A stretch of 44,736 bases of DNA from an uncultured Acidobacteriota bacterium. Lineage in GTDB: Bacteria > Acidobacteriota > CAIWXX01. The translations under genes and the position numbers were made by a program. Below are positions 1 to 38,361 of this stretch, one piece after another. The DNA lies in contig CAIWXX010000025.1 in NCBI GenBank assembly GCA_903916735.1, forward strand, positions 1 through 44,736, read 5' to 3'. How positions within the stretch are numbered: position 1 is the first letter of the stretch; each line of letters opens with the position of its first letter. The notes under the pieces are model-generated. The model did no database searches, was not told the origin of the DNA, and saw only the letters and a list, made by a program, of their open reading frames with translations.

Positions 1-137
1 ACAGCCGAATGTTCAATATTCAACATTCGGACGAAGTAGTTATATTGCCAGAGGCCTGACCAGGGAGCGATGCATAGAAAGATACCCGCAACGTAAGTGC
101 ATGCAATGTAGCCGTAGAGCATCCAGCGTCGACTCAC
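1..137 (-). CDS. Small membrane protein, partial (runs off left edge)
   Basis: A reading frame begins right at the stop of the upstream TPR gene and continues to the window edge (about 45 codons visible). The start is either a GTG at 137-135, which overlaps the TPR stop as GTGA and has an AAGGG just upstream, or an ATG at 122-120. The visible protein is aromatic and hydrophobic (YGYIACTYVAGIFLCIAPWS, then LWQYNYFVR), which looks like one membrane segment followed by a short loop. I recall short membrane proteins of this kind in Acidobacteria but cannot name a function. The overlap suggests translational coupling with the TPR gene. The last visible codons run through a near-perfect palindrome (5-30), so the frame may be disrupted or lengthened by a repeat. 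Confidence 0.55.
   Translation of the reverse strand, partial: MSRRWMLYGYIACTYVAGIFLCIAPWSGLWQYNYFVRMLNIEHSA
5..30. repeat. 26-bp near-perfect palindrome
   Basis: The two 9-bp arms CCGAATGTT and AACATTCGG are exact reverse complements and flank the self-complementary core AATATT; only the two C residues beside the core fail to pair. It lies inside the frame of the partial membrane protein. Short AT-rich dyads of this type usually occur as dispersed intergenic repeats, so its location in a coding frame is unusual. Confidence 0.7.
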
Positions 138-30220: not shown

Positions 30221-31712
30221 TTTTGACCTCCTGCGCCGGGGCGGGTTTCCTTACAATTTCGGCGACTGTGCAGTTTTCATCGATTAAGTACTTGCGGGCC
30301 GCATCCATGATCTCCTGCGGCGTGATACTCGCAACAATGTCAGCCCGCTTCAGATACATCCTCCAATCGTTGTACATCAGCTCGTTGATCAGAAGCGAAA
30401 AGGCGAAACGATTGCTCCCGATGCCTCGCACTTGAGATGCCTTCACCTGATTCAGAGCCTTCTCGAGCTCGGTTGGAGTCACAGGCTCTCGGGCGAGTCG
30501 ATCGAGTTCCTCCCGAATCTCCGCAATGACATCATGGCACGTCGCGGGCGCCACTGGTGTTGCCGCGAAGATCATCAGATTGTCGAAACGACGACCAGGA
30601 CCACTGCCTGAAGAAACGTCTGAAACTTTCTGTTCCTTTTTAACGAGCCTTTCCCAGAGCCGCGATGATCGTCCGGTGGCCAGCACATTGGAGATCACAT
30701 CCATCACAAAGGCATCGCGGTTCGGATACGTCGGCTTATGAAAGCCCATGACGAACTGCGGCTCAGCTTCCCATTCCACCTGAATCAGACGCTCGCCTCG
30801 TTGAGCCGGTTCTCGTGTTGTAATGGCAGGCGGCCGCGGGGCTGAAGGAGCATCCCCGAAGTACTTATCGGCAAAAGTCAACACCGCCTTCGGATCGACA
30901 TCACCCACAATCGTGATGACCGTATTGGCCGGCACATAATAAGTTCTGTAGTAGTTCTCGGCAGTCTCCCGCGTCAGCTGGTCCAGATCTTCGATCCAGC
31001 CCACAACCGGTTCATGATAGGGATGCGCGCGGAAAGCAGCAGAATAGAATTCCTCCTCCAGCTTCCCGTCCGGCGTGTCATCGTATTCGCGCCGCTCTTC
31101 CCTAACAACATCCCTTTCTGTATAGAACTCCCGCAAGACGGTGTGCTTGTACCTCTCCGACTCCATCAAGAACCAGAGTTCCAGCTTATTTGACGGCAAA
31201 GACGTGTAAAACACAGTCGTATCGTTGCTTGTCCCCGCATTTGTTCCATTGGCTCCAGCCATATCATAAATTCGATCAATCTCGTCTTTGACGATATATG
31301 GCTGCTGTTTTTCTTCCAGTTCCTTGAGCTTCTTTCTGTCATCCTCGACCTTGGTGGGATCAACACCGGTCTTCTTTTGGGCTTCCTGAAGTTCGCGGAT
31401 AACGGCGTCTTGCTCCTTCATGAGCTCAAGTTCTTTGGCATAGTTCCGAGACCCAATGACAGGAGTTCCCTTAAAGGACATGTGTTCAAAAAGGTGGGCA
31501 AGGCCGGTTCCACCCTTGGGATCATCGACTCCACCGGCCAAGACACCCAGAGCACCAGTAAAGGTCGGAATCTCGTGGCGCTCATAGATCAGAATACGCA
31601 GTCCATTTGGCAGCGTTGTACTCGTGACTCTTCGTTCCAGGTCCGTCAAAGATGCTGCCCCCAGTCCCAAGGGGATGCTGAGAAGGAGTATGCAGAGCGG
31701 ATATTTTTTCAT
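30210..31712 (-). CDS. M16-family zinc peptidase, active subunit
   Basis: A protein of 500 residues with a signal peptide (MKKYPLCILLLSIPLGLGAA). The inverted zinc motif HLFEH is at 73-77, with the distal glutamate in VVREERR (205/206). An insertion of about 50 residues at 95-145 (ELMKEQDAVIRELQEAQKKT, KKLKELEEKQQ) is predicted coiled coil and separates the two metal-site parts. A C-terminal M16 domain follows. The start is the ATG at 31712, because it begins the signal peptide and GAGGA lies 5 nt upstream; an in-frame start 81 bp earlier would bury the signal. It pairs with the inactive subunit downstream and probably clears peptides outside the cytoplasm. Confidence 0.93.
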   Translation of the reverse strand: MKKYPLCILLLSIPLGLGAASLTDLERRVTSTTLPNGLRILIYERHEIPTFTGALGVLAGGVDDPKGGTGLAHLFEHMSFKGTPVIGSRNYAKELELMKEQDAVIRELQEAQKKTGVDPTKVEDDRKKLKELEEKQQPYIVKDEIDRIYDMAGANGTNAGTSNDTTVFYTSLPSNKLELWFLMESERYKHTVLREFYTERDVVREERREYDDTPDGKLEEEFYSAAFRAHPYHEPVVGWIEDLDQLTRETAENYYRTYYVPANTVITIVGDVDPKAVLTFADKYFGDAPSAPRPPAITTREPAQRGERLIQVEWEAEPQFVMGFHKPTYPNRDAFVMDVISNVLATGRSSRLWERLVKKEQKVSDVSSGSGPGRRFDNLMIFAATPVAPATCHDVIAEIREELDRLAREPVTPTELEKALNQVKASQVRGIGSNRFAFSLLINELMYNDWRMYLKRADIVASITPQEIMDAARKYLIDENCTVAEIVRKPAPAQEVKNEK

Positions 31713-32056
31713 GGGTATCCTCGATTCTGAATAACAGATCATGCGCGTACCGGAAATTTCCGTTTGGAAAGTTTCGGGCACTTTCTTGAGCATGCTCTAA
31801 TGAGACGTCAGCAATTGAAAGGACGCCGATGCATGCGCTTTCTATTGAAAAAAGCGCTGAGGCGCATGACCATCCTGCAAGAATGTCCTGTCAAGAAACG
31901 GGTCATCTTACTTATTCAATATGCCCCTGAAACTGATCCACGATCAACGGTGGGGCTGCCCTCTCGATATTCCGTCATCACGGATCAGTGTCCCACAATC
32001 TCCAGTTGCACTTCCATCATCAATTATGGAGGGCCTTCAATCGGTTTTCGGATCTT
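31713..32056. other. Non-coding region upstream of the M16 operon
   Basis: About 340 bp between the 131-residue protein gene and the M16 pair. A TTGACA occurs on the minus strand near 31897-31892, but no matching -10 lies 16-18 bp downstream. ATGACC-type inverted bits flank it (about 31867-31906). No gene is supported here. Confidence 0.45.
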
Positions 32057-32452
32057 CTATCTGCTCTTCGCCCTAAGCGCCTGAGCCGTTCGAAGCGCTT
32101 CCGGCAACCCCTTTACCTTGCGTATTTTGGCGATGTTTTCTCTCTCTCTCGGCGAGAGCTGCCTCAGGAGGCCAAGCAACTGCCCATGCAGTTTCAACTC
32201 GGCACTACGCTGTGGAGATATCTTTCTCCTTTTTCTTTTTACAGGTGCCGTTGCTTCTGATGCGCTATCGACCATAATCGTGGGCCGACGAGGGGCTCTC
32301 TTCTTTTCGGCGATGGCAGAGCCGACCGATTTATCAAGGGTTCCAGCCAGCGCTTCGATGGCTCCAAGAATCGTGGCCTTGTCCTCATCGTTGCGGCTCC
32401 GCCCCAGGATCTCGCATAGTCCGGAAATAAGAACTCCAATTGGTTTTGACAT
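32057..32452 (-). CDS. Basic 131-residue protein of unknown function
   Basis: No family recognised. The start is well supported by GAGG 6 nt upstream. The N-terminal about 47 residues look helical and slightly acidic (GVLISGLCEILGRSRNDEDK). The middle is a basic, Ala/Pro-containing linker (EKKRAPRRP, VKRKRRKISPQRS). The C-terminal 45 residues are predicted helices with the string LRQLSPRERENIAKIRKVKG. The strong basic patches suggest nucleic acid binding. It is divergent from a possible 48-residue gene, with a dyad block between them, the usual layout for an autoregulated DNA-binding protein. That role is inferred from charge and context only. Confidence 0.75.
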   Translation of the reverse strand: MSKPIGVLISGLCEILGRSRNDEDKATILGAIEALAGTLDKSVGSAIAEKKRAPRRPTIMVDSASEATAPVKRKRRKISPQRSAELKLHGQLLGLLRQLSPRERENIAKIRKVKGLPEALRTAQALRAKSR

Positions 32453-32475
32453 CCTTTACCTCATCTTTCTGCGCG

Positions 32476-32517
32476 TATTGAACGCGCCAACACAGGCGTA
32501 TTTCAACGCGTTCAATA
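32476..32517. promoter_or_regulatory. Operator-like inverted-repeat block in a divergent intergenic region
   Basis: TATTGAACGCG (32476-32486) and CGCGTTCAATA (32507-32517) are perfect 11-bp inverted repeats 20 bp apart. The left half is itself a dyad, GCGCG-TATTGAA-CGCGC (32471-32487), and the spacer holds GCGTATTTCAACGC. The block lies 24-65 bp from the 131-residue gene start and 32-73 bp from the small-gene start. A TATCAT (32523-32528) just beyond could be a -10 for the plus strand, so binding here could block its promoter. Confidence 0.6.
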
Positions 32518-32548
32518 ATAAATATCATAGAAATTCAAGAGATACAAT

Positions 32549-32695
32549 ATGCCAGCCATTGTGACAAGAGGTCGTAGCGATTTTCAAAATAAAAATAAAA
32601 CATTTGAATTTCAAAGTAAGTCTCAGTTCTTTCCCAAGACAAACGTCGGAATTTCAAAGAAACCTTATGTGCCGCCGGATGTCATGAAAGCATGA
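32549..32695 (+). CDS. Possible 48-residue small protein
   Basis: A short frame starts ATG at 32549 and ends TGA at 32695. It is Asn/Lys/Phe/Gln-rich and AT-rich compared with neighbours (RSDFQNKNKTFEFQSKSQFF, then KKPYVPPDVMKA). A weak ribosome site AAGAGA lies about 8 nt upstream. Low complexity and small size make coding uncertain. Support comes from its divergent position across the dyad block. No family recognised; the unusual composition may also mean non-coding AT-rich sequence. Confidence 0.35.
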   Translation: MPAIVTRGRSDFQNKNKTFEFQSKSQFFPKTNVGISKKPYVPPDVMKA

Positions 32696-34966: not shown

Positions 34967-36637
34967 ATGATGGATAACAGCAGGCCGCAAGAGGGACATT
35001 CTCGATCGCACCCTCCTCCGACAAAATGTCGCGAGAAGTTTTTCGGAGTCATCCTCTTTTGCTGTGCTCTCGCTTGCTGCTCACTCTATCTGTCAGACGC
35101 GCTCACACAGCCGATCGAACAGCTGCTCGTGACGGTCGCCGATGATTCTTTTTTCTATCTCCAGATAGCCCGCCATATCGCCCATAACGGCCAATCGACC
35201 TTTGACGGCATCAATCCCACCAACGGCTACCATCCGGCATGGATGGCCCTGATGACGCTCTTCGCAAAACTCGGCGCGGACAAAGAGGTGTTGCTGCGAT
35301 CATGTCTTGTGACATGTCTCTTCTTTCACATCCTCTCAGGCGCACTCATCGTCATTATTCTGAATCGAATTGCCGGAGGCATATGGAGTTGGCTTGCGGG
35401 AGCCGTCTGGGTCATGAATCGCCTTCCTTTATCATTTTGCCGGATGGGATTGGAAACGTCTTTCTATATCTTTTCACTCGGCCTTGTCATACTCATCTTT
35501 GTCAAGTGGATGGGGCCGCATATGCACCGTGGGACGCCCTTTCACCCGCCCACCCGAGCACTCATCCGGGTTGGACTGGCCTTGAGCCTGTCATTCTATG
35601 CACGGACAGAGGCGGTTCTCCTCATATTTGTCATGCTCGCCTACCTTAGCGCACTCCTGATTTTTCGAAGAGAAGGGCGCCTTATGAGCAGATCCATTTG
35701 GCATCGACTTCTAGCGTTGTACGGATCATATTTACTGAGCATTTTTCCCTGGTTCTTGTATTCCTACTACATGACAGGGCATCTGTTACAGAACAGCAGC
35801 CAAATGAAAATTTTGTGGGCAATGGATAAGCATGCCGGAGTGGATATCGAATCGCGTATTCGTTCGGCGATCGAATTCCTCTGGTGGCCATGGCTGGGGG
35901 TGACAGTCGATGCATTGCTGGGCGTGCCGCAATTCCTGTTGAAGATCGCGCCCCTGGCCGTTTTCCTCGTTCTTATCGGGATTATTTTTTTCTTTCGAGG
36001 ACGGGCCAGTCACGTTTTTCAGCTGACACTCATACTCTCCATCGCAACTCTGTTGACCGGGGCCGTCTACGCACTCTGGTATACGGATCATCAACTGTGG
36101 TATCTCGCCCAGCCCGGTTTTTCACTTTACATCATTGCCGCCTGCTGGATCGGTATCAGTATTCAAAGACTGACCATTTTTCAGAATAGATTATTGGGAA
36201 TCCTCTCCTCATCCACCATCTTTCTGATCGCTTTTCTCGCATCCCTCAGTTTCCGGAAAGACATGCCCGCCATCTATCCTTGGCAGAGGGACGTTTATAC
36301 ATCTCAGATCCGATTCGAAAAGTTGATCCCTCCATCGGCCCGGATCGGTTGTTTCAACTATTGTGGGATCGCAGCATTTTTCAGTGATCGGACTGTTATC
36401 AATCTCGATGGCCTGGTCAATAGCAACATCCAGCCCTATTATTGCAAGCATACCGTTGAAAAGTACTTACGCGATTACCACATCGCTTATATTGCCGACG
36501 AAGAGGCCTCCATACGCCGGGTACAACGATTCACATCAGCGCCTCTCAATCTTATCCCACTCGACTCAGCTCCTCTGGCTGGGGTAACAATGGATCGCCG
36601 ATGGCTGTGGCGGGTCCAGGATCCGCACTCTCCCTGA
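34967..36637 (+). CDS. GT-C-like polytopic membrane protein (putative glycosyltransferase)
   Basis: A protein of 556 residues with about 11 hydrophobic segments. After the first membrane helix comes DDSFFYLQIARHIAHNGQST, with the acidic pair D59/D60, then NPTNGYHPAWM. This is the first-loop signature of GT-C-fold enzymes that use lipid-linked sugars. The C-terminal soluble part has GCFNYCGIAAFFSDRTVINL with DGLVN, a tail I recall in related uncharacterised proteins. It probably transfers a sugar to a periplasmic or lipid acceptor; neither sugar nor acceptor can be told. The ATG at 34967 lies in a short direct repeat and has a weak ribosome site. Confidence 0.8.
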   Translation: MMDNSRPQEGHSRSHPPPTKCREKFFGVILFCCALACCSLYLSDALTQPIEQLLVTVADDSFFYLQIARHIAHNGQSTFDGINPTNGYHPAWMALMTLFAKLGADKEVLLRSCLVTCLFFHILSGALIVIILNRIAGGIWSWLAGAVWVMNRLPLSFCRMGLETSFYIFSLGLVILIFVKWMGPHMHRGTPFHPPTRALIRVGLALSLSFYARTEAVLLIFVMLAYLSALLIFRREGRLMSRSIWHRLLALYGSYLLSIFPWFLYSYYMTGHLLQNSSQMKILWAMDKHAGVDIESRIRSAIEFLWWPWLGVTVDALLGVPQFLLKIAPLAVFLVLIGIIFFFRGRASHVFQLTLILSIATLLTGAVYALWYTDHQLWYLAQPGFSLYIIAACWIGISIQRLTIFQNRLLGILSSSTIFLIAFLASLSFRKDMPAIYPWQRDVYTSQIRFEKLIPPSARIGCFNYCGIAAFFSDRTVINLDGLVNSNIQPYYCKHTVEKYLRDYHIAYIADEEASIRRVQRFTSAPLNLIPLDSAPLAGVTMDRRWLWRVQDPHSP

Positions 36638-36684
36638 ACCGGCCGCCATTCGAGATTTCAAATGAAAATCCCATTCTGTGGAGA

Positions 36685-38361
36685 ATGCGAAGCATGATCC
36701 CCTTGCTGAAAAGGCCTGCAGAGCATCAAAGATGGCTCGACCTCGGCTGCCTTCTTTTGGCCGTCCTCATCGCGACGATAGCGCTCTTTCATGTTCGTGA
36801 TTTCTACCACGACGACGCCTTCATTACTCTTCGATATGCCAGTCGATTGCTTTCCGGAAAGGGCCTCACCTGGAGCGATGGCGAGCGAGTTGAAGGATTT
36901 ACTCATCCCCTATGGCTTGGACAAATCGCGCTTTTGGGTGGACTGGGATTCGATCTGGTTGGCGCAACACGAGTACTGGGAGTGACATACCTACTCGTTC
37001 TCTTCATAATTTGGCGGCGAGCAGGAGCCTGGCCTCTTCCTCTGCTCCTGATCGCGAGTCAGCCTGGACTTATACTCTGGACCCTTGGAGGCCTCGAGAC
37101 CGTCAGTTTCTGCACCTGGATGATTCTGGGCTGCCGGCTTGGTCAGCGAGTTTGTGAATACAGTGCGGATCTGAATCCACGTGCTCAACGATATGGCATG
37201 CTCCTGGGTCTGGCATTGGCAGGAGCGGCGTTGACGCGACCTGAGGGGCTTGCAACAGGGGTGATCACTCTTCTGGTCGTCCTGAGTCGCCGGCGCCTTC
37301 GGCCGGCTCTGACGGCGGCTGCCGCTTTCATCCTGCCGGTTTGCGCATATTTGGCCTTCCGCATTGCCTATTTCGGCGATTGGATCCCCAATTCGGCACG
37401 TGTCAAAATCGACGGCATCCCATTCATCACCCAATTCGGTTTCGCTGTCCACTACATCCGGTCAACGGCCCTGGAATGGCTGCCGTGCGTCGCCATAGGA
37501 GCTCTGTCAATTCTCTTCCTTCCGCGCTTCCGGTCATTGTGGGTTGTATCGCTCAGTGTGCCGATCCTTGTTTCGATCCTTTTCGGTGGCGGTGATCACA
37601 TGGTGGGAGCTCGTCTTATCGTTCCCATCACTGTGCTTTTTGCCTATGCCGCAAGCATCAACGGATGGCCATCCTCACGCTTGAATCGATCCATCATCTC
37701 CATTGCTCTCTGCGTCGGATTAGCATGGCAATGCCGGATCGACTTTTCACGTACGGTGACCCGGGACGATGCTGCTGCGGTGGGTGAACCAGTCGGGCGA
37801 TTCTTCCATGAGCACCTTCCACCGTCAACGCTCGTCGCGCTGGCAACAGCAGGCTCGACCCCCTATTTTGCACCCTCGCTTCGTTTCATCGACACTCTGG
37901 GTCTGAACGATCGCGCGATTGCATCGCGCTCTTCCCCCGTCATCATCACCCGCTGGCAGGCCATTCCAGGGCACCGCAAAGGTGATGGTGAAAGTGTTCT
38001 GAACCGTCAACCGGATATCATCGTGCTTGGCCCGGCCGACGGTTACCTCGGAACAGATCCTCGCCGCTGGTTTCTAAGTGATTTCGAACTGCTCACATCA
38101 CCACGATTTCAAGCGCTGTACCGCCCCTATGTGTTTCTCGTGCCTGTCACACCTCAGGAAGCTGCGTGGCCGGCTGTTGCTCAACGCCTCATACCCATGA
38201 AACGTTCAATCGCGCTTGTGGCCTATCTCCACACCGACTCGCCCTCTGCAGCAGGCTTCGCGCGCCTGGGGGCTCTCCTGCCCGTGCCGTGGCGAGATGC
38301 TCCAGCGCCCCTGATGGACTCAAAATCGATTCGAAGCAGTCTCCTTAGAAACTCCGAATGA
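36685..38361 (+). CDS. GT-C-like membrane protein, AftB/ZomB-related
   Basis: A protein of 558 residues with about 11 membrane segments. The first loop reads HDDAFITLRYASRLLSGKGL followed by GERVEGFTHPLWL, closely matching the pattern of mycobacterial AftB arabinosyltransferase and the ZomB family (DDAFIT-RYA, GERVEGYT-PLW). D43/D44 would be the catalytic acidic pair. The C-terminal IDTLGLNDRAIA also matches this family. An ATG at 36601 would overlap the previous gene by 37 bp and lacks a ribosome site; the ATG at 36685 or the one at 36694 is more likely (GGAG nearby). It is co-oriented with the preceding GT-C-like gene. Its 3' end overlaps the convergent pepA by 17 bp. Confidence 0.82.
   Translation: MRSMIPLLKRPAEHQRWLDLGCLLLAVLIATIALFHVRDFYHDDAFITLRYASRLLSGKGLTWSDGERVEGFTHPLWLGQIALLGGLGFDLVGATRVLGVTYLLVLFIIWRRAGAWPLPLLLIASQPGLILWTLGGLETVSFCTWMILGCRLGQRVCEYSADLNPRAQRYGMLLGLALAGAALTRPEGLATGVITLLVVLSRRRLRPALTAAAAFILPVCAYLAFRIAYFGDWIPNSARVKIDGIPFITQFGFAVHYIRSTALEWLPCVAIGALSILFLPRFRSLWVVSLSVPILVSILFGGGDHMVGARLIVPITVLFAYAASINGWPSSRLNRSIISIALCVGLAWQCRIDFSRTVTRDDAAAVGEPVGRFFHEHLPPSTLVALATAGSTPYFAPSLRFIDTLGLNDRAIASRSSPVIITRWQAIPGHRKGDGESVLNRQPDIIVLGPADGYLGTDPRRWFLSDFELLTSPRFQALYRPYVFLVPVTPQEAAWPAVAQRLIPMKRSIALVAYLHTDSPSAAGFARLGALLPVPWRDAPAPLMDSKSIRSSLLRNSE

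Follow-up and report, generated by a model that had tools for sequence, protein, structure and literature searches.

P0001, a basic protein of 131 amino acids, is the product of a genuine gene and belongs to an unannotated protein family that recurs among Acidobacteriota and for which nucleic-acid binding is plausible. The explanation we favor, to which we assign a joint probability of about 0.5, has three parts: P0001 acts as a stand-alone small basic protein that would bind nucleic acids, the inverted repeat (dyad) ahead of its gene is specific to this lineage, and the 48-amino acid open frame that diverges from it (P0002) is a product of chance. Judged from charge and predicted structure, the likeliest role of P0001 is that of a nucleoid-associated or other nucleic-acid-binding protein. 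The locus lies in a window of 44,736 nucleotides (44.7 kb), the whole stretch of DNA that was analyzed, and its features are collected in Table 1. The first-pass annotation had described two divergent reading frames of 131 and 48 amino acids, separated by 96 bp that hold a perfect 11-bp inverted repeat, and all of these elements are found where it placed them. The 96-bp gap has a G+C content of 38.5%.

Table 1 Features of the P0001 locus and predicted regions of the protein (residue numbers refer to P0001).
Feature	Position	Strand	Basis
P0001, basic open reading frame of 131 amino acids, undescribed family	32057..32452	-	homologues; AlphaFold; pI 11.1, charge +15.6
C-terminal module shared across the family (P0001 residues 70-131)	32060..32245	-	22-member alignment A4; domain model pLDDT 87.9
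Ribosome site of P0001, GATGAGGTAAAGG	32453..32465	-	sequence; duplex energy -7.0 kcal/mol
Dyad, TATTGAACGCG-N20-CGCGTTCAATA	32476..32517	none	perfect 11-bp inverted repeat; single copy in genome
P0002, open frame of 48 amino acids, probably not a gene	32549..32695	+	no relatives; chance length; weak ribosome site
M16 peptidase, same-strand neighbor downstream of P0001	30210..31712	-	ribosome site; signal-peptide-like start
N-terminal helices of P0001	residues 5-18, 22-52		AlphaFold
Basic disordered linker of P0001	residues 53-79 (disorder in model around 52-68)		AlphaFold
C-terminal three-helix bundle of P0001	residues 80-130		AlphaFold, pLDDT about 94

We regard P0001 as a gene because it combines a ribosome site, coding statistics and real relatives. 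The ribosome site (GATGAGGTAAAGG-ATG) is as good as previously claimed, with a duplex energy of -7.0 kcal/mol, and in-frame codon statistics exceed chance (z 3.5). A phmmer search with P0001 found matches in 24 of 396 Acidobacteriota genomes, its own included, and the best match outside its own genome had an E value of 8.7e-10. A profile of the 55-residue core, built from alignment A4, extended the matches to 27 of the 396 genomes; P0001, which is itself a row of A4, scores E 7.7e-20 against this profile. Matches to Pfam, NCBIfam and PHROG models were absent, as were P0001 or its relatives from plasmids, phages and viral contigs, and a literature search returned nothing relevant. Thus, the earlier description of an unrecognized basic protein holds (no named family, pI 11.1). 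By sequence comparison, the family is small, undescribed and patchily spread across Acidobacteriota.

Similarity between P0001 and its relatives is found mainly over residues 70–127. The 22 rows of A4 yield the core consensus RxxLSPKRRAxLxLQGRYMGYxRQLxPRQKAQVxxxRxxKGxxAAIxxA, in which Gly is invariant and Tyr, Arg and Ala are near-invariant. P0001 carries the family core motif LxLxGxxxGxxRxL...KG...A and fits the family build in its length, its basic character and its helical N-terminal part. It is a divergent member that lacks the near-invariant core Tyr and reads LHGQLLG where most members carry LQGRYMG; its N-terminal region does not align confidently to that of most members. The window's genome holds a single copy of the family, whereas nine dispersed copies (L058-L066) in genome G184 represent a lineage-specific expansion. 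In one of these nine, L065, most of the N-terminal part seems to be missing. Two copies in another genome (G168, contig C35) lie about 1.3 kb apart, at 322486 and 323801, and the second has stop codons within the matched frame and may be a pseudogene. A subgroup (L004, L005, L029 and L031) has a longer N-terminus, with two predicted-helix-like stretches (e.g. LSPGQAAYVLDRLIRDRRVTQYDVQRYV...) followed by a coiled-coil-like stretch. The basic linkers of this subgroup are long, and two of them contain an AT-hook-like RGRP.

All 24 family members measured have a pI of 11–12 and a charge of +15 to +28, and P0001 is among the least basic of them (pI 11.13, charge +15.6). Its charge is distributed unevenly, with +0.5 in the N-terminal part, +5.8 in the linker and +9.1 in the bundle. 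An RGRP core occurs in the linker of 2 of the 24. The structure prediction proposed in the first-pass annotation, made with a four-row alignment, gave a confident C-terminal three-helix bundle preceded by a basic linker and two N-terminal helices. Modeling of the C-terminal domain alone reproduced the same bundle (pLDDT 87.9). Fold searches with the full model and with the C-terminal domain returned nothing at E <0.001, and the best Z score was below 5. With the full model, the top structural alignments include archaeal PDCD5 (PDB 6iqc/6iqo; Z 4.7, RMSD 9.8 over 67 residues); however, P0001 has no sequence match to PDCD5 and no Pfam match, and a Z score would have to be far higher to carry meaning for helical bundles. 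The best-aligning rows for the C-terminal domain are the three-helix domains of staphylococcal protein A and affibodies (Z 4.8, RMSD 2.9 over 51 residues), a likeness that reflects a common arrangement of helices with no sequence or functional link, the domain of P0001 being strongly basic. We also considered homology to TALE repeats. Among solved-structure sequences, the core profile matched TALE-repeat proteins at an E value of about 1e-6, yet each repeat contributed at most 2.2 bits, and we rejected the match as an accumulation artefact. The two final core helices (QVKALREKKGVRAAIEIA-type; 32060-32140, minus strand) resemble a TALE-like helix-Gly-helix hairpin at a level that is not significant.

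The basic charge and predicted helical domain make nucleic-acid binding by P0001, as proposed earlier, plausible. Because P0001 matched no DNA-binding family or solved structure, binding is inferred solely from charge and shape. Nucleoid-associated proteins with basic linkers or tails include H-NS, HU and the histone H1-like HctB and AlgP types. Like these proteins, members of the P0001 family are small and strongly basic, with an oligomerization-like helical N-terminus and a disordered basic linker, and are present in multiple copies in some genomes. Unlike them, the P0001 family has a C-terminal helical bundle with no assigned family, and it shows no sequence match or significant structural match to these types. 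In the model we favor, the N-terminal helices of P0001 would form a dimer, and the linker and bundle would bind DNA (or RNA) largely irrespective of its sequence, in the manner of nucleoid-associated proteins. The gene is probably monocistronic. The dyad would be a lineage-specific cis element that provides a promoter binding site, forms a hairpin in the 5'-leader of the P0001 transcript, or has no function. Acidobacteriota, a poorly characterized group, abound in soils. A very basic, recurrent family that sometimes reaches many copies per genome could help to organize or regulate their chromosomes, and naming the C-terminal module would provide an annotation for dozens of orphan genes. A bolder and more tentative possibility is that the family represents a new type of acidobacterial chromatin-like protein, in which an unassigned three-helix DNA- or RNA-binding module has reached nine copies in some genomes; in the present lineage, the gene would have gained a dyad for autoregulation or a leader hairpin.

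The arms of the dyad, TATTGAACGCG (32476-32486) and CGCGTTCAATA (32507-32517), are separated by a spacer of 20 bp. Their halves had been described as dyads themselves. This is true of the right half, which falls within a perfect 8-bp palindrome (AACGCGTT, 32505-32512); the left half contains no palindrome of 7 bp or longer. As minus-strand RNA the dyad folds into a hairpin whose 18-bp stem encloses a 4-nt loop (-19.2 kcal/mol, compared with -14.2 for the opposite strand); pairing extends to 18 bp on the P0001 strand because bases of the spacer add G-U and A-U pairs. The position of this hairpin just ahead of the ribosome site, together with the very high charge of P0001, raises the possibility that P0001 associates with RNA or the ribosome instead of DNA and that the leader hairpin is a feedback site on its own mRNA. 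A faint profile signal from ribosomal protein bS20, which is not significant (E about 0.3), points in the same direction. Nevertheless, the hairpin has no Rfam match and is not seen upstream of the relatives examined, its stability in leader context reaches a z score of only -1.9 relative to shuffles, and its place in the transcript is only predicted. We consider this reading unlikely.

Less likely again is an autorepressor role, in which a P0001 dimer would recognize the promoter dyad of its own gene in a sequence-specific manner; this is the view of the first-pass annotation with the micro-gene left out. The basic character of P0001 and its small helical domain would suit this role, and a perfect 11-bp repeat just upstream of the ribosome site has a probability of about 0.0004–0.0008 in one given stretch of 96 bp. 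However, across the whole window 0.6 such repeats with spacers up to 20 bp are expected and 1 is observed, so the dyad is unremarkable on that scale. It occurs once in its genome, with spacers of 5–35 bp allowed, and it is absent from the 150 bp upstream of all 25 distinct P0001 relatives surveyed. Inverted repeats in these upstream regions are at chance level except at L004, L005, L059, L026, L033 and, marginally, L029. Those at L004 and L005 are terminator-like and belong to the preceding gene; those at the other four are unrelated. Upstream of relatives, the half-site is represented by a single match, at 8 of 9 positions, in L005, where it straddles the preceding gene's stop codon. The genome contains five further exact 11-bp half-sites, each of them inside coding sequence. 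A regulon search with half-sites returned more places than its reversed-pattern control, which does not preserve codon content (103 vs 44 and 85 vs 23); seven of the eight places inspected are inside genes, and the remaining one is a degenerate 14-mer. An autoregulatory operator thus remains unproven, because the dyad is single-copy and absent at the 25 family genes and its half-sites elsewhere are inside genes. The expectation that the dyad would recur upstream of homologues was not borne out, and a conserved operator is not supported by these comparisons.

P0002 very probably arose by chance as an open frame within an upstream region rich in A+T. No relatives were found at E 0.001 in the 396 Acidobacteriota genomes, where five weak matches outside its own genome (E 0.04–0.09) are at chance level, and none were found in plasmids, phages or viral contigs. 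When the 718-bp gap that contains P0002 (32453-33170) is shuffled, an ATG frame of 48 amino acids arises in 62.5% of cases. Its ribosome site is weak (-2.9 kcal/mol), and an internal 11-nt repeat returns 43 nt further on, a distance that is not a multiple of three. The codon score (z 2.1) lies between chance and coding: among open non-coding frames inside genes, 29% score at least as high, and the value falls below the median of coding genes (3.5) and above their 5th percentile (1.5). This intermediate score and the divergent geometry would fit a regulator/peptide or toxin-antitoxin-like pair formed by P0001 and the 48-amino acid product, a proposal made very improbable by the absence of P0002 relatives, the chance-level length, the weak ribosome site and the out-of-phase repeat, as well as by the lack, among frames of at least 70 amino acids, of any neighbor that recurs beside P0001 relatives beyond close kin. 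The micro-gene proposed earlier as a partner of P0001 is of no further interest unless its translation is shown.

Among frames of at least 70 amino acids, the neighbors of P0001 relatives share nothing beyond close kin; because they vary across members, P0001 has no fixed partner. In the only genome from the same bacterial family (G001), P0001 is absent, the M16 peptidase pair is kept, and the gene upstream of the pair differs. Elsewhere in the window, at 34967-38361, two long frames of 556 and 586 amino acids adjoin with a 37-bp overlap, and neither matches a Pfam model at E 0.001. The most likely start of the M16 peptidase downstream of P0001 is at 31712, which has the ribosome site GAGGATACCC-ATG and a signal-peptide-like start (MKKYPLCILLLSIPLG), in preference to the upstream ATG at 31793.
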